This document shows, piece by piece, positions 3,882 through 44,112 of a DNA stretch of 64,000 nucleotides (positions are counted from its first letter, which is position 1; each line of letters starts with the position of its first letter). Origin of the DNA: Acidobacteriota bacterium (GTDB lineage Bacteria > Acidobacteriota > Vicinamibacteria > Vicinamibacterales > UBA2999). The stretch lies in NCBI GenBank assembly GCA_030697165.1, contig JAUYQQ010000019.1, positions 1 through 64,000 on the forward strand, written 5' to 3'. Both the position numbers and the translations under genes were made by a program. Under the pieces are notes generated by a model that was not told the DNA's origin, searched no databases, and was given only the letters and a program-made list of their open reading frames with translations.

Positions 3882-4286
3882 TTAGGAGGCGGCGATGCGG
3901 CCGAAGCCGCTCTGGTTGCCCTTCGACTCCTCGAGCATGTCTTCGAGGGTGTCCATCAGCATCACCAGCGAGTAGGGCTTTTCGACGAGGCGGGTGTTGG
4001 GGCGCAGCGTCTCGAGGTCCGCGGATTCCGATCGCAGGCCCGAGAAAATAATCACCGGGATGCCGGGCGGCGTAGAGACCACGACTTCGCGGCCTGAACC
4101 GCGGCGCAGGCGCAGGTCGATAATGGCGGCCGCCGGACGGTGCGTCTTGATGGCATCAAGGCCCTCGTCTGCGGTTTCAGCCGTGACGACCGTGTACTGC
4201 CGCATCTGCAGGAACTTTACCAACGGCTGGCGAACAGCACTGTCGTCTTCAACGACCAGGACGACCGGCGAGACTTCTCTGACCAC
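3882..4286 (-). CDS. Single-domain response regulator
   Basis: This is a stand-alone receiver domain of about 134 residues. VVLVVEDDSAVR carries the acidic pair, IIDLRLRRGSG the phosphoacceptor aspartate, FSG the conserved Ser, and VEKPYS the conserved Lys. No output domain follows, so it probably passes phosphate on or binds a partner. No ATG precedes the domain; I used the GTG at 4286, although no strong ribosome site is visible. The DinB-like gene ends 33 bases upstream on the same strand, so they may be co-transcribed. No cognate kinase is adjacent. Confidence 0.8.
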   Translation of the reverse strand: MVREVSPVVLVVEDDSAVRQPLVKFLQMRQYTVVTAETADEGLDAIKTHRPAAAIIDLRLRRGSGREVVVSTPPGIPVIIFSGLRSESADLETLRPNTRLVEKPYSLVMLMDTLEDMLEESKGNQSGFGRIAAS

Positions 4287-32995: not shown

Positions 32996-33946
32996 CTATT
33001 CGGCCTTCGTAATCTCGGCGAGCGCCAGCCTCGCCCCTTCCTGTTCGGCTTCTTTCTTCGTCCGCCCGGCGCCCTGCGCCAGCACGGCGTCGCCGACCAC
33101 CACGTCCACGTAGAACAGCTTGTGGTGGTCGGGACCAAGCTCGCTGGCGACGCGATACGCCGGCAGCGGGCGGCCCAGGCTCTGCAGCCGTTCCTGCAGC
33201 CGCGATTTGTGATCGCGGCCGAAATACTCGGGCTGTCGCGCGTCTTCGATGAGGCCCGCCAGCTCGCGCATCAGGAACTGCCGCGCCGGTTCGAGTCCCC
33301 CGTCGAGGTAGATGGCCGCAATCAGCGCCTCGCAGGTGTCGGCCAGGAGCGCCTGCTTCTGGCGGCCGCCGGTCTTCTCCTCGCCCCGGCCAAGAATCAT
33401 GTGGTCGCCGAGGCCCAGCAGGTCGGCCATCTCCGCCAGCGAGGCGGTCGAGACCAGGTTGGCCTTGATCTTCGACTTTTGCCCTTCCGAGTAGGTCGGA
33501 AACGCGCGAAACAGCGCGTCCGACACGACCAGCCCCAGCACCGCATCGCCCAGGAACTCCAGCGACTCGTTGTCGACCACGCCGCCGCTCGGATCCTCGT
33601 GCGCTTTCGACTTGTGCGTCAACGCGTGCTCGAGCAGGCCGCGATCGCGGAAGCGGTAGCCGACCCGTGTTTCGAGCGCGGTGAACGCCTGCGACAACGG
33701 GACGACGACGCCGGTGGCCGCTTGCGCCCGGTAGCTGTCGATGACCCGCACCGCCTCGGCCGCTTCGTCCGTGCGCACCGAGATCTGCGTCTCGCCGAGC
33801 GGGTTCAGCGAAAACGGGAACAGGCCCGGTATCGGACCGGCGGTTCGCAGCGATTCAATGCCGTGGCTGTCGAGCAATCCCTCGATGACATTGGCCTCGA
33901 TGTCGGATTGCGTCCGGAAGATGACGGTCAGGCCGTGGTCGATCAC
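32996..33946 (-). CDS. rnc: Ribonuclease III with N-terminal DUF2007-like domain
   Basis: RNase III cuts double-stranded RNA, maturing rRNA and degrading antisense duplexes. The catalytic signature NESLEFLGDAVLG is near residue 128, LLADTCEALIAAIYLDGG follows, and the dsRNA-binding domain (about 245-313) ends GRTKKEAEQEGARLALAEI. The protein is 316 residues against a usual 225-240. The extra N-terminus (about 1-75; TVIFRTQSDIEANVIEGLLD, TQISVRTDEAAEAVRVI) looks like DUF2007, a putative signal-transducing domain. GTG 33946 overlaps the upstream stop in GTGA, which supports translation of the whole extension. Confidence 0.88.
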   Translation of the reverse strand: MIDHGLTVIFRTQSDIEANVIEGLLDSHGIESLRTAGPIPGLFPFSLNPLGETQISVRTDEAAEAVRVIDSYRAQAATGVVVPLSQAFTALETRVGYRFRDRGLLEHALTHKSKAHEDPSGGVVDNESLEFLGDAVLGLVVSDALFRAFPTYSEGQKSKIKANLVSTASLAEMADLLGLGDHMILGRGEEKTGGRQKQALLADTCEALIAAIYLDGGLEPARQFLMRELAGLIEDARQPEYFGRDHKSRLQERLQSLGRPLPAYRVASELGPDHHKLFYVDVVVGDAVLAQGAGRTKKEAEQEGARLALAEITKAE

Positions 33947-36144
33947 GCCACCGTCCCTGAGCCGATCGGCACCGGCGCCGGCAGGTCCATCTTCACCAGG
34001 ATCATGGTCATGTCGTCGTGCTGGTCGGCGCCGCTCGCGAAGGCGCGCAGTTCGGCCAGGATATACGAACGTAACTGGTCGAACGGCAGGTGCGCATACT
34101 GCTCCACCACCTGGGCCAGGCGTTCCTCACCGAAGCAGTCGAAGGACTGGTTCATGGTTTCCGAGATGCCGTCGGTGAACCACACCACGAGATCACCGGG
34201 CGCCAGGCTGATGGTCTGTTCCTGCAGCAGCCCGTCGAACATGGTGCCGTCGTCGATCTGCAAGCCGACGACCAGGCCATCGGGGACGAGCAACCGCGCC
34301 TTGCGGCGGCCCGGCGGCTGATCCGCCGGCACGTGAATCAGCGGGCAATGACCGGCGCGCGCGAACGTCATCTCGCGCCGCTCGACGTCGATCACGCCGT
34401 AGGTCATGGTGATGAAGCTGGCAGCGTCGAGGTTGGCCGACACCACCCGGTTCACCGCCGACAGGAATTCTTTCGGCTCGTGATGCAGTCGCGCCAGCGA
34501 CTGCACGATCACCTTGAGCTGGGCCATGTAGAGGCCGGCCGCCAGTCCCTTGCCCGCCACGTCGGCAATCAACACGCCGGTCATGGTCTCGGTGATCGGC
34601 AGGAAGTCGTAGTAGTCCCCGGCCACTTCGCGAGCCGGTTCACAAAATGCCGACATCGCCAACCCGGTCACGCGCAGCGGCCCGCTCGGCAGCAGCTTCT
34701 GCTGGATCGCGCGCGCCGCAAACATCTCCTGCTCCATGCGGCCCTTCTCGGCCATTTCGCCGAGCAGGGTCGTCACTTCACCGGTCATCAGGTTGAACGA
34801 TTCGGCGAGCTCGCCGAGTTGATCGCGCGCGCGCACCGGGATCTGGTGAGCGAAGTCGCCGGAGCGCACATGCTGTGTGCCGGTAAACAAGTCGTGCACC
34901 GCGCCCGTGATCTGCCGCGCCAGGACGAAGCCGATCACCAGCGCCACGAACTGGATGATCAGGAACAGCATGCCGATCACCGCCAGCACCAGCAGCAGCA
35001 GCTGCCCGAAGTTCATGCTGCCGACGCCCGCCTGCGACACGACCGAGATTCGGTTGTAGATCTCCCAGACGTTGATCAGGATCGCGACCGATGCGCTCTC
35101 GGGCTCGCCGGTCGTCCAGTCGGAGAAATCGAGAAACGTCACCCACCGCTGCGTGGCCAGTGAGAAGAACGGGGTGTTCTCGGGATCCGGCGGGCGCCGT
35201 TCGAAGGCGCGGCCGAGCGGGGGCCGGCGCCCTTCGCCCAGAAACGCCGTGACCTCGCCCAGGCGGATGCCGGTTTCTTCGGTGATTCGCTGTTCGATGG
35301 TCGTCGATAGCGGCATGTCGAGCACGACCGCCCACGCCGGGTTCGCCACCTCCGGCAGCGCGACCGCCCGCATGACCAGGCGGGTGCCGCCTTCTCCGCC
35401 GGCGCCGTCGGGCGGCACCTCGAACGCCACGATCCCGGCGAAGCCGTCGCACGTGACCCACTTGGGCAGCGCCGCCGGCACGTCGAGGTGCGACCAGGCC
35501 CCGGCGGAAATGGGCAGCTGGGCCGGCAGCGTCCGCGGCACGCGCGCGGCCCGCCGGCCTTCCTCCGGGCAGCTCAGCCCAGAGGCCGGAATGATCGCCA
35601 GCGAGAGATAGGGGTACCGGGTCTCGGTGCTTGACTGCCGGCGCTCGAGCGCCTCGGCGACGTTGGCGGCGGTCGCGCTGCGCTGCACCTCGAGCTGCGC
35701 GGTCTGCGCAAGAAACCGCGCCTGGTCGGTCAGCGAGCGCACGCGCGTCTGCACCAGGTAGGAACTCACGTTGAACAGCAGGATCAGGCCGGCCAGCAGG
35801 AAGAACGTGATCACGAGCAGCGCCGGCACCACGCCGACGAACACGTACGACAGGATCAGTTTACGGCGGACCCGCCACAGCAGCCGCCGCTTGGCCCACA
35901 TCGCGAGGCGCGTCAGCCCGTATGCACCGGCGAACAGCAGCGCCAGGCTGCCGACCATGTCAATCGCCTCGACCGCCGCTGGCAGCGGCACCGCGAAGCC
36001 GAGCGGCCACGTGACCAGCTTGATCGCCAGGCCGAGCAGAAGCGCGCGACCAGGAAAGGTTCGGAGCAGCCACCCTCGCCACACGTGCCACCGCGACGGC
36101 GTATCGCCGGGCAGCAGGGCGGCAGGACGAACGGGATTATTCAT
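33943..36144 (-). CDS. Membrane RsbU/SpoIIE-type protein phosphatase
   Basis: This 733-residue membrane protein probably dephosphorylates an anti-anti-sigma factor. Four or so N-terminal helices (about 25-130) precede a large extracytoplasmic sensor region (about 135-380). Another helix (LLLLVLAVIGMLFLIIQFVA), a HAMP domain (about 410-470; RQITGAVHDLFTGTQHVRSG) and a PP2C/SpoIIE domain (about 490-730) follow. Metal ligands are in REVAGDYYDFLPI, LIADVAGKGLAAGLYMAQLK and VVWFTDGISE. It overlaps rnc in GTGA. No STAS or anti-sigma gene is adjacent. Confidence 0.9.
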   Translation of the reverse strand: MNNPVRPAALLPGDTPSRWHVWRGWLLRTFPGRALLLGLAIKLVTWPLGFAVPLPAAVEAIDMVGSLALLFAGAYGLTRLAMWAKRRLLWRVRRKLILSYVFVGVVPALLVITFFLLAGLILLFNVSSYLVQTRVRSLTDQARFLAQTAQLEVQRSATAANVAEALERRQSSTETRYPYLSLAIIPASGLSCPEEGRRAARVPRTLPAQLPISAGAWSHLDVPAALPKWVTCDGFAGIVAFEVPPDGAGGEGGTRLVMRAVALPEVANPAWAVVLDMPLSTTIEQRITEETGIRLGEVTAFLGEGRRPPLGRAFERRPPDPENTPFFSLATQRWVTFLDFSDWTTGEPESASVAILINVWEIYNRISVVSQAGVGSMNFGQLLLLVLAVIGMLFLIIQFVALVIGFVLARQITGAVHDLFTGTQHVRSGDFAHQIPVRARDQLGELAESFNLMTGEVTTLLGEMAEKGRMEQEMFAARAIQQKLLPSGPLRVTGLAMSAFCEPAREVAGDYYDFLPITETMTGVLIADVAGKGLAAGLYMAQLKVIVQSLARLHHEPKEFLSAVNRVVSANLDAASFITMTYGVIDVERREMTFARAGHCPLIHVPADQPPGRRKARLLVPDGLVVGLQIDDGTMFDGLLQEQTISLAPGDLVVWFTDGISETMNQSFDCFGEERLAQVVEQYAHLPFDQLRSYILAELRAFASGADQHDDMTMILVKMDLPAPVPIGSGTVA

Positions 36145-36230
36145 GGGGCGCTTTGGGCGCCACGGCGCCCGACGGCGCGCGGCAATTGCGCGCGAAAATC
36201 ATACCAGAGTATCGTTAACCGACAGATCCC

Positions 36231-37391
36231 ATGAAACTTAACGACTCCGCCCGCTTCAGCACCATCTGCATCCATGCCGGTCAGGAACCTGACCCGGCCA
36301 CCGGCGCCATCATCACGCCGATTTACCAGACGTCCACCTACGTGCAGGACGGCCTCGGCCAGCCGCACGCCGGCTTCGAGTACGGCCGCACCCAGAACCC
36401 GACGCGCATGGCCCTCGAGCGGAACATCGCCGCGATCGAGGCCGGCACGGCGGCGTTCGCGTTTGCCTCGGGCATGGCGGCGATCGATGCGGTGCTGACC
36501 CGCCTCGAGTCCGGGGACCACGTGCTCGTCAGCGATAACACCTACGGCGGCACCTTCCGGCTGTTCGAGCGCGTCCGCCGCAAGTTCGGCCTCGACTTTA
36601 CCTACGTCGACACCTCGAAGCCCGAGCTCGTGGGGCCGGCCATCAAGCCCAACACGAAGTACCTGTTCATCGAGACCCCGACCAACCCGATGCTGCACAT
36701 CACCGACATCGCCGCGGTGAGCGAGATTGCGCACGCCCGGAACGTCCGCGTCGTCGTTGACAACACGTTCGCCAGTCCGTACATCCAGCAGCCCCTCACG
36801 TTGGGCGCCGACATGGTGCTGCACAGCACCACGAAGTTCCTGAACGGCCACAGCGACAGCGTCGGCGGCGTGGTCATTCTCAAGCACCAGGACGATGTCG
36901 AGTGGTTCAAGTTCGTGCAGAACGCGGCGGGCGCGATCCTGGGGCCAATGGACTCGTGGCTGATCCTGCGCGGGACCAAGACACTGACCGTGCGCATGGA
37001 GCGGACCAACACCAACTCGCAGGTCATTGCCGAGTTCCTGGCCGGGCACAAGAAGGTCCAGCGGACCATCTACCCCGGTCTCACGTCGCACCCGCACCAT
37101 GCGCTCGCCAAGCGGCAGATGCGCGGGTTCGGCGGCCTGATCTCGTTTGACGTGGGCTCGCTGGACGCGGCGAAGAGCGTCTTGAACAACCTGAAGCTGA
37201 TGGCGCTGGCCGAAAGCCTGGGCGGTGTCGAGACGCTGATCTCGCACCCGGCGATCATGACCCATGCGTCGGTGCCGCCCGAGCGGCGCGCGATGCTGGG
37301 CATCACCGACGGTCTGATCCGCATTTCCGTCGGCATCGAAGATGTCGAGGACCTGCAAGCGGACCTGGCGCAGGCGCTCGCGACGGTCTAG
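36231..37391 (+). CDS. metB: Cystathionine gamma-synthase/lyase
   Basis: This 386-residue PLP enzyme of the Cys/Met metabolism family either makes cystathionine from an activated homoserine or cleaves it. PLP is bound by the Lys in LHSTTKFLNGHSDSVGG (about residue 201), with DNTYGGTFRLF, ETPTNPMLHITD and VVDNTFASPYIQQPL also conserved. YGRTQNPTRMALERNIAA is the substrate-side motif. The family members are hard to tell apart by sequence, so metB versus mccB is unresolved. It is a single gene ending tail to tail with cutA (stops overlap by four bases). Confidence 0.9.
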   Translation: MKLNDSARFSTICIHAGQEPDPATGAIITPIYQTSTYVQDGLGQPHAGFEYGRTQNPTRMALERNIAAIEAGTAAFAFASGMAAIDAVLTRLESGDHVLVSDNTYGGTFRLFERVRRKFGLDFTYVDTSKPELVGPAIKPNTKYLFIETPTNPMLHITDIAAVSEIAHARNVRVVVDNTFASPYIQQPLTLGADMVLHSTTKFLNGHSDSVGGVVILKHQDDVEWFKFVQNAAGAILGPMDSWLILRGTKTLTVRMERTNTNSQVIAEFLAGHKKVQRTIYPGLTSHPHHALAKRQMRGFGGLISFDVGSLDAAKSVLNNLKLMALAESLGGVETLISHPAIMTHASVPPERRAMLGITDGLIRISVGIEDVEDLQADLAQALATV

Positions 37392-37874: not shown

Positions 37875-38069
37875 GTGGCGGCACGACGGACTGACAGCGA
37901 CACGGTGAAAACGACCGTCGAACTCCCGGGGGAGCTTTGGCGGGCCGCGAAGATTCGGGCCATGGATGAACGGGCCGACCTTCGCACGGTGCTGATTCGC
38001 GCGCTCGAGGATTACCTGCGCGACGGGCCACCGGAACCGATTGTTAGCAACAGTCCGACAAGCCGATGA
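37875..38069 (+). CDS. Small ribbon-helix-helix protein
   Basis: This protein of at most 64 residues contains KTTVELPGELWRAAKIRAM, then RTVLIRALEDYLRDG, the pattern of a ribbon-helix-helix domain as in VapB or Arc. GTG 37875 or GTG 37905 could be the start. It overlaps the next gene in ATGA, and that gene is FtsB-like rather than a toxin. So it is more likely a transcriptional regulator than an antitoxin. The iterons directly upstream would be its natural target. Confidence 0.7.
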   Translation: MAARRTDSDTVKTTVELPGELWRAAKIRAMDERADLRTVLIRALEDYLRDGPPEPIVSNSPTSR

Positions 38070-38428
38070 CCGAGCCTGAATCCACCGCACCTTCGCCGTC
38101 GCCAGCACCCATGGCTCCCAAGGCGACCCTTGCGCACCGCAGCCGGCGGTGGTTCCGTCACGGCCTGCTCTTCTTCACCTTCGTGATCGTCGTGGACGCG
38201 GTGGCCGGTGAAAAGGGCTTGCTGGCTCTGCTGCAGGCGCGCCGCGAGTACGCCGCCCTCGAACGCTCGCTCGAACGCGCGCGCACAGAGAATGCCGATC
38301 TTCGCGAACAGGCCCGGCGATTGCGCGAGGAACCCGCCGCGATCGAAGACCAGGCGCGCCGCCAGCTCGGCCTCATCAAGCCGGGTGAAGTCGTCTTCTT
38401 CATCAAGGACGTCGACAAGAAACCCTAA
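38066..38428 (+). CDS. ftsB: FtsB/DivIC septum-formation protein
   Basis: This 120-residue protein has one transmembrane helix (about 35-55; GLLFFTFVIVVDAVAG) after a Pro/Ala cytoplasmic tail. A periplasmic coiled coil follows (about 60-95; LLQARREYAALERSLERARTENADLREQARRLREEPAAIED shortened here to its register of Leu and Glu), then ARRQLGLIKPGEVVFFIKD. This layout is that of FtsB/DivIC, which links the early and late divisome through FtsL and FtsQ. The start overlaps the RHH gene in ATGA. It normally follows eno; here it does not. Confidence 0.82.
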   Translation: MTEPESTAPSPSPAPMAPKATLAHRSRRWFRHGLLFFTFVIVVDAVAGEKGLLALLQARREYAALERSLERARTENADLREQARRLREEPAAIEDQARRQLGLIKPGEVVFFIKDVDKKP

Positions 38429-38473
38429 GACGGCGTACCCTTGTCTTTCTCGCAACACTTTCGAGGAGGACTC

Positions 38474-38899
38474 ATGGCACGTCAGGCAGAAGCGGAATGG
38501 AAGGGCGATCTCAAGGGCGGCACCGGCCGCGTCAAGCTGGGCAGCGGCGCGTACGAGGGCAACTACTCGTTCGCCACGCGTTTTGAAAACGGGAGCGGCG
38601 CCAACCCCGAGGAACTGGTCGGCGCGGCGCTGGCCGGCTGCTATTCGATGGCCCTCGCCAACTCGCTCGCCACGGCGGGCTTCACCGCCACCAGCGTGCA
38701 CAGCAGCGCGGACGTCCACCTGGGGAAGGACGACACGGGCTTCCTGATCAACCTGATCGAGCTCACCGTCACGGCGGTGGTGCCGAACGTGGACGACGCC
38801 ACCTTCCAGCAGCACGTCGAGAAGACCAACACCGGCTGCATCATCAAGCGCGCGCTGGCCGCCGTCCCGACGGTCACGGTCAAGGCCACCCTCAAGTAG
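38474..38899 (+). CDS. osmC: OsmC-family peroxiredoxin
   Basis: This 141-residue protein reduces organic hydroperoxides with two cysteines. The first is in LVGAALAGCYSMALANSLA (about residue 56) and the second in NTGCIIKRAL (about residue 126). The start AEWKGDLKGGTGRVKLGSGA matches the OsmC rather than Ohr branch. ATG 38474 has GAGGAGGA four bases upstream, so the longer frame is rejected. A strong hairpin follows the stop. Confidence 0.93.
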   Translation: MARQAEAEWKGDLKGGTGRVKLGSGAYEGNYSFATRFENGSGANPEELVGAALAGCYSMALANSLATAGFTATSVHSSADVHLGKDDTGFLINLIELTVTAVVPNVDDATFQQHVEKTNTGCIIKRALAAVPTVTVKATLK

Positions 38900-42883: not shown

Positions 42884-44011
42884 TTAGATAGCCGAGCGGC
42901 GCCGCTGCAACTGCATGTAGCCCAACACCAGGAGCCCGAACCCCAGCATCACGGTGAAGACCTGCGGCAAGGTCGGCACTGCAGTCAGCGTCATCATCGT
43001 GTACGCCGCGACCCCGGAACAGCTCGACGGATTGGTCGCCCGGACCTCGAAGTTGTAAACGCCACCTGTACCCGAGGCGAGCGGCATGCCGGAGATCACA
43101 CCAGCGGACGACAGCGACAGACCCGGCGGCAACGCGCCACTGCCGACCAGTCTGTAAGTGTAAGTAGTGTCGGCCGCCAGTCCGTTCCCGGCGGTAATCG
43201 TCTGGCTGTATGCGACGCCGGACGTGGCATTGGGCAAGGTCGGGGGTGCCAGGGTGATCACGGGACAAGTAGTACTGCCGCCGCCACCGCCGCCACCGTC
43301 GGTCGTCGCACATGTCGAGCGCGTCACGGTATTGGAATCCAGCGTAACGGCACCATCCTGCGCCAACAACCGACCTGACACAGTCGCGCTGGTGTTCGCC
43401 GTGATGCTCGTGCGGGCCAGGATATTGCCGACAAAAGCCGTGCTCGTCCCGAGAGTGGCGGAGCTACCTACTCGCCAGAAGACGTTGCACGCCTGCGCGC
43501 CGTTGATCAGGACGACCGACGAGGAAGTGGCCGTGATCAGGGTACTGCCAGACCTGAAGATGAAGACCGCATTGGCGTTGCCTTGGCCATTCAGCGTCAC
43601 CGGACCGGTGATGGACACCGACGACGCGAAACAATGCACCCCCGGCGTAAACGTCCGGTTACCGATGTTCACGTCGCCGGGTCCGGAGTTCGTGGTGCAC
43701 GCCTGAGCCAACAGCGAGTTGGCCGCGGTCGTCGTGGCAGTCTGCGCCGCGAGGGCGCTCGCGCCGCCGCGATCGATGTTGCCGCCGGTCACCAGCCCAG
43801 GCGGAAAACCCGTGACGCTGGTGCCTGGGTGAACACCCACGTCGCCGGTGATTACGCTGGAGCCGGTGTTCGTGACCGTCGTATTGCCCAGGACCGCGAA
43901 GCTGCCCGCGTCGCCCAGCGACGGCGCTGTTTGCGCCAGCACCGTGGATGCCCCGCAGAGGAGCACGACGAGTGTCGCGGCCGCCGTCGTATAGCTTTGT
44001 GTGCGCATCAT
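42884..44011 (-). CDS. Ice-binding-like (DUF3494) surface protein with IPTL-CTERM-type tail
   Basis: This 375-residue protein has a signal peptide (about 1-25, ending VLAQ) and then a DUF3494 beta-solenoid (about 30-235; FAVLGNTTVTNTGSSVITGD, GVHPGTSVTGFPPG). A poly-Gly linker and an Ig/putative He_PIG-like module (GVAYSQTITAGNGL, PPGLSLSSAGVISGMP) follow. The C-terminus is VPTLPQ, a hydrophobic helix and QRRRSAI: the motif-helix-basic plan of exosortase sorting tags (IPTL-CTERM). It should be cleaved and anchored or secreted by an exosortase. The tandem exosortase lies divergently about 0.5 kb away. Confidence 0.85.
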   Translation of the reverse strand: MMRTQSYTTAAATLVVLLCGASTVLAQTAPSLGDAGSFAVLGNTTVTNTGSSVITGDVGVHPGTSVTGFPPGLVTGGNIDRGGASALAAQTATTTAANSLLAQACTTNSGPGDVNIGNRTFTPGVHCFASSVSITGPVTLNGQGNANAVFIFRSGSTLITATSSSVVLINGAQACNVFWRVGSSATLGTSTAFVGNILARTSITANTSATVSGRLLAQDGAVTLDSNTVTRSTCATTDGGGGGGGSTTCPVITLAPPTLPNATSGVAYSQTITAGNGLAADTTYTYRLVGSGALPPGLSLSSAGVISGMPLASGTGGVYNFEVRATNPSSCSGVAAYTMMTLTAVPTLPQVFTVMLGFGLLVLGYMQLQRRRSAI

Positions 44012-44112
44012 AATCCCAACTCCCAATGCTCGAACCTCGGCATGTACTTGAGAGCGTAGCGACTTCAGCCGTTCGATCGGTGTGCTGTATTGCACAGTGT
44101 GCAGGGAAACTC

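Follow-up and report, generated by a model that had tools for sequence, protein, structure and literature searches.

What is the extra stretch at the start of an acidobacterial RNase III, a nuclease that trims and cleaves double-stranded RNA, and what might it do for the enzyme? Known bacterial RNase III is described as a two-domain protein of about 220 aa (PMC8708148, PMC4858673). The rnc gene in the window, by which we mean the whole 64,000-nucleotide stretch of DNA analysed, encodes a product of 316 aa. ORF and profile searches place this gene, an RNase III with an N-terminal DUF2007 domain, at 32996-33946 on the minus strand (951 bp); the reading frame runs from a GTG at 33946-33944 to the stop codon at 32998-32996.

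The RNase III core

Residues 91-311 of the rnc product match the equivalog model for RNase III, TIGR02191, with 234 bits, against a curated cut-off of 166 bits. The N-terminal extension therefore measures about 85-90 residues, close to the excess of some 80 residues over the usual length that the initial annotation had given. Profile and alignment place the catalytic domain at residues 91-229 (33260-33676, minus strand), with an intact NESLEFLGDAVL signature at residues 126-137. Within the signature E127, E130 and D134 are invariant in 32 orthologs, as are D203 and E206 further on. A double-stranded RNA-binding domain (dsRBD) follows at residues 246-311 (33014-33211, minus strand), matched by PF00035 with 51.6 bits over residues 247-311. 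The best solved structure matches of the core are 1o0w, 7r97 and 2nug. The catalytic domain, dsRBD, signature and catalytic residues are the same as in the class I bacterial enzymes of E. coli, Aquifex aeolicus and Thermotoga maritima, but the known enzymes are described as having two domains, whereas the window enzyme adds a third at its N-terminus. The window genome holds only one RIIID gene, and it is therefore the housekeeping RNase III itself that bears the head. The rnc product is thus the organism's single RNase III and, from its residues, apparently catalytically intact.

A variable linker, residues 77-90 (33677-33718, minus strand; alignment and structure model), joins the head to the catalytic domain, and the last helix of the modelled N-terminal domain ends at residue 77. 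The pTM of the full-length model is low (0.56), which, together with the variable linker, fits a head that moves separately.

Identity of the head

The head, residues 1-76 (33719-33946, minus strand; profile and structure model), is a DUF2007 domain, with a profile match spanning residues 9-70 (33922-33737). Within the full protein the match is confined to residues 9-38 and scores 18.5 bits. When the first 76-79 residues are searched alone the score rises to 22.5-22.7 bits, slightly below the curated cut-off for DUF2007 (PF09413) of 25.7 bits, and the first 79 residues cover profile positions 4-63 of 66 (22.5 bits, E 1.3e-4). In a genome-scale DUF2007 search several ortholog heads scored above the cut-off (26.5-38.7 bits), and all 26 orthologous N-termini that were searched matched DUF2007 and no other Pfam family (best E 1.1e-11), indicating that the match of the window head is not due to chance. 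The resemblance to DUF2007 that the initial annotation had suspected was thus recovered by HMM search. Pfam calls the family putative signalling, a function that is putative across the whole family; neither a ligand nor an activity of DUF2007 is known to us.

A PDB sequence search with the head domain gave no meaningful match. An AlphaFold2 model of the head has a beta-alpha-beta-beta-alpha fold (mean pLDDT 80), and a Foldseek search of the PDB ranks 2hfv first (prob 1.00, TMq 0.66, E 0.002), the structure of RPA1041, which is the solved DUF2007 member. The VIA Z score for this pair is 8.5, with an rmsd of 5.8 over 73 residues. Domain 1 of the ring-forming YscJ/PrgK proteins is as close by fold as 2hfv (VIA Z 9.4-9.6), so the fold by itself is unspecific for DUF2007. 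A comparison of profiles by hhalign lent no support to homology between DUF2007 and the ring-building domain 1 of FliF (probability 2.7% with FliF from related genomes).

Distribution and origin of the fusion

A survey of rnc N-termini in related genomes detected the head, with a match that begins no later than residue 9, in 142 of the 146 genomes of the window's order that have a detectable rnc; judging by the names of related records, the order is presumably Vicinamibacterales. Among the remaining four, one gene runs off its contig (G280), two have partial or weak matches (G282, G285), and only G054 truly lacks the head. Among the matches listed, the fusion occurs neither in the other families of the class that were searched (f16, f75, f76 and f77) nor in the rest of a 199-genome sample from the phylum; those listed for other families begin at about residue 64 or beyond. 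No DUF2007 was found in the rnc frame of the unfused RNase III loci examined, many of them from other phyla.

A tree built on the RNase III core groups the fused proteins in a single clade (support 94/81, 97% of bootstrap trees), indicating that the head was gained once. G054 is a long branch of unsure placement on this tree, and its family membership suggests that it has lost the head. Its headless rnc (L202, 4914-5864) is fast-evolving, with an apparent insertion in the catalytic domain, and still lies behind a SpoIIE phosphatase gene.

Loop motif and stand-alone relatives

The loop between strands 2 and 3 of the head (residues 37-52; 33791-33838, minus strand) has low model confidence and carries a conserved 'FPF.v..LGE' motif in the alignment. 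A motif of roughly this form (FPF.V..LGE) is common to the fused heads and to stand-alone DUF2007 genes of other acidobacterial families, so the recruited domain has retained conserved features of its own, and the loop suggests a binding surface older than the fusion. Most DUF2007 copies in this phylum are small proteins by themselves. They have the same profile and fold (PF09413; 2hfv), while the window copy is instead fused to a housekeeping nuclease. Against a model of the fused domain, the nearest stand-alone relatives within the phylum reach 79-86 bits. The stand-alone genes most similar to the fused domain (L208 and L209, in G186 and G145) lie near locus position 4100, beside a gene for a putative glycosidase and one for a membrane protein.

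DUF2007 has also been joined to another enzyme. In two genomes of another acidobacterial family, a NUDIX hydrolase carries at its C-terminus a DUF2007 that shares the subfamily and the loop type, PFTMDGLGE (L216:3528-4241 and L227:1182-1895). These fusions resemble the window protein in coupling the domain to a nucleotide-acting enzyme, and differ in the enzyme and in the position of the domain, which is N-terminal on RNase III. In two further loci (L213 in G210, L215 in G217) NUDIX and DUF2007 are encoded separately, by adjacent or overlapping genes that lie immediately before mraZ. As a guide to function, the neighbours of stand-alone DUF2007 genes were set aside: they are mixed (NUDIX, mraZ, glycosidase) and point to no common pathway. 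We infer that the DUF2007 head is a portable binding module, here joined to an RNA-acting enzyme.

Possible roles of the head

The account that we consider probable begins with a single fusion of a DUF2007 domain to rnc in the ancestor of the order, inserted between the phosphatase gene described below and rnc. The long form is the one translated, and the head is a compact beta-alpha-beta-beta-alpha module on a variable linker. Through its conserved loop the head would bind a partner protein or a small ligand, and it would adjust the organism's sole RNase III in cis, by way of activity, dimer or location. Control of this kind would differ from that known in E. coli, where RNase III is tuned by YmdB or by T7 kinase phosphorylation (PMC8708148, PMC4858673); there the control acts in trans or on the catalytic domain, and there is no regulatory domain in cis.

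The main rival to adjustment in cis is a purely structural role, in which the head receives no signal and stabilises the homodimer or the fold. The yeast enzymes Rnt1p and Pac1p resemble the window enzyme in having a single RIIID, a dsRBD and an N-terminal extension, and this longer N-terminal part stabilises the homodimer (PMC8708148). They belong to another lineage, and their extension is of another length. To our knowledge it is not a DUF2007 domain. That ring-forming YscJ/PrgK domains are among the fold neighbours of the head also suits a structural role, and a dimer-stabilising head would yield the same sequence evidence as a regulatory one. However, other bacterial RNase IIIs dimerise without a head, and the loop motif shared with free-standing DUF2007 proteins suggests that the binding surface preceded the fusion. 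We regard the structural explanation as a serious minority possibility.

Another explanation draws on the gene next to rnc, which encodes a HAMP-SpoIIE (PP2C-type) phosphatase of 733 aa (33943-36144, minus strand; Pfam), a neighbour kept across the order and in most of the sister-family loci examined. It lies directly upstream of rnc in 76 of 83 fused loci (several of these are the same genome from two collections), often with a 4-bp overlap. The head might be the target of this phosphatase: a kinase would phosphorylate one of two candidate residues, Thr12 or Ser14 (where helix 1 begins), and the phosphatase would reverse the modification and so switch RNase III. Position 14 is serine in 64 of 66 fused proteins as against 6 of 34 stand-alone DUF2007 rows, and serine phosphorylation is known to raise the efficiency of E. 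coli RNase III 7.4-fold (PMC4858673). Yet serines ordinarily cap helices in this position, and none of the genes recognised next to the rnc-phosphatase locus encodes a kinase or a STAS-type substrate. With seven SpoIIE-type matches in the window genome, any private link between phosphatase and RNase III is putative.

The arrangement is, moreover, not specific to the fusion. The phosphatase gene also directly precedes unfused rnc in G054 and in several sister-family genomes, and the same gene order in headless loci of the class indicates that the phosphatase-rnc arrangement is older than the fusion. By this comparison of loci, the head appears to have been inserted between rnc and a pre-existing SpoIIE-type phosphatase gene. 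The phosphatase neighbourhood was accordingly dropped as evidence specific to the fusion, since it recurs in most of the headless sister-family loci. Because helix-cap serines are common and the phosphatase is not fusion-specific, we give phosphorylation of the head low weight and think it unlikely; regulation of RNase III by the adjacent phosphatase is weakly supported.

Three observations stand apart from the question of the head. Throughout the class, a gene for a SpoIIE-type HAMP phosphatase immediately precedes rnc whether or not the head is present (in the window and in the sister loci L141, L197, L200 and L201), and the two form a conserved pair. In the window, the frames at 36144-37358 and 38015-38815, upstream of the phosphatase gene, are without any Pfam match. 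Farther along, the product of 42887-44095 is ice-binding-like (PF11999, 200 bits) and also has a putative Ig domain.

A reading of the head as an additional domain for RNA binding or substrate selection is very improbable. The head does sit on an RNA enzyme, and its fold falls in the ferredoxin-like group, a broad one that includes RNA-binding domains. It is, however, acidic in every one of the 66 orthologs (mean net charge -4.5, range -2 to -10; pI 4.9), which argues against simple added RNA binding, and none of the 26 orthologous N-termini matched an RNA-binding family in Pfam.

Translation of the head

The rnc start codon overlaps the stop codon (TGA) of the phosphatase gene in the sequence GTGA (33943-33946, minus strand). 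The overlap had been noted in the initial annotation, which took the extension to be translated if the coupling is real, and is seen at 33946-33943; a GGGA stretch precedes the GTG by 8-11 bases. Among 66 distinct fused proteins the position of the start codon differs by a few residues at most, and the start often takes the form xTGA, overlapping the stop codon of the upstream gene. Within the genus the head has a dN/dS ratio of 0.175, the dsRBD one of 0.159 and the catalytic domain one of 0.093. Mean identity is 45% for the head versus 71% for the catalytic domain. The head thus evolves faster than the catalytic domain, and the constraint on it is moderate.

A later start near residue 80 was also sought, and none is better supported than the GTG. 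The 66 fused proteins share no conserved internal ATG. A GTG valine codon at residue 82 is present in 35 of the 66 and absent from the window rnc; in the window gene the sole candidate near residue 80 is a TTG at residue 84, which no Shine-Dalgarno-like stretch precedes. The conserved start position and the selection on the head show that it is part of the translated protein; some relatives may also make a minor short form. That RNase III instead begins near residue 84, at this in-frame TTG, with the frame upstream open by chance or as a relic, is scarcely credible beside purifying selection on the head equal to that on the dsRBD, a start position conserved in orthologs, a DUF2007 match in every ortholog N-terminus tested, the want of a conserved internal ATG and the lack of a Shine-Dalgarno-like stretch before the TTG.

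Implications

The DUF2007-RNase III fusion is real, old and maintained by selection. What is new is the combination, as the RNase III core is a known enzyme and the head belongs to a known family; a literature search found no description of a DUF2007-RNase III fusion or of RNase III in Vicinamibacter. The order has kept the head in its only RNase III and under purifying selection, so a functional role of the head is likely. A regulatory or interaction role, our best guess from the sequence comparisons, is inferred. Of the regulatory signalling head first proposed, the domain and its translation have held, on profile, structure, conservation and selection. The signalling half is still Pfam's 'putative signalling' label for DUF2007.

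We offer, more tentatively than the adjustment in cis set out above, the possibility that throughout the order the only RNase III is controlled in cis by a DUF2007 head that binds a ligand or a partner, perhaps with a coupling to the adjacent membrane-anchored phosphatase. If this is true, rRNA processing and mRNA decay in these bacteria would respond directly to a signal. The three-domain form of the only RNase III, present order-wide, offers a natural experiment on the ways in which this enzyme can be regulated. For the DUF2007 family, the fusion provides an enzymatic reporter, in which binding by the head may be read out as changed RNA cleavage.
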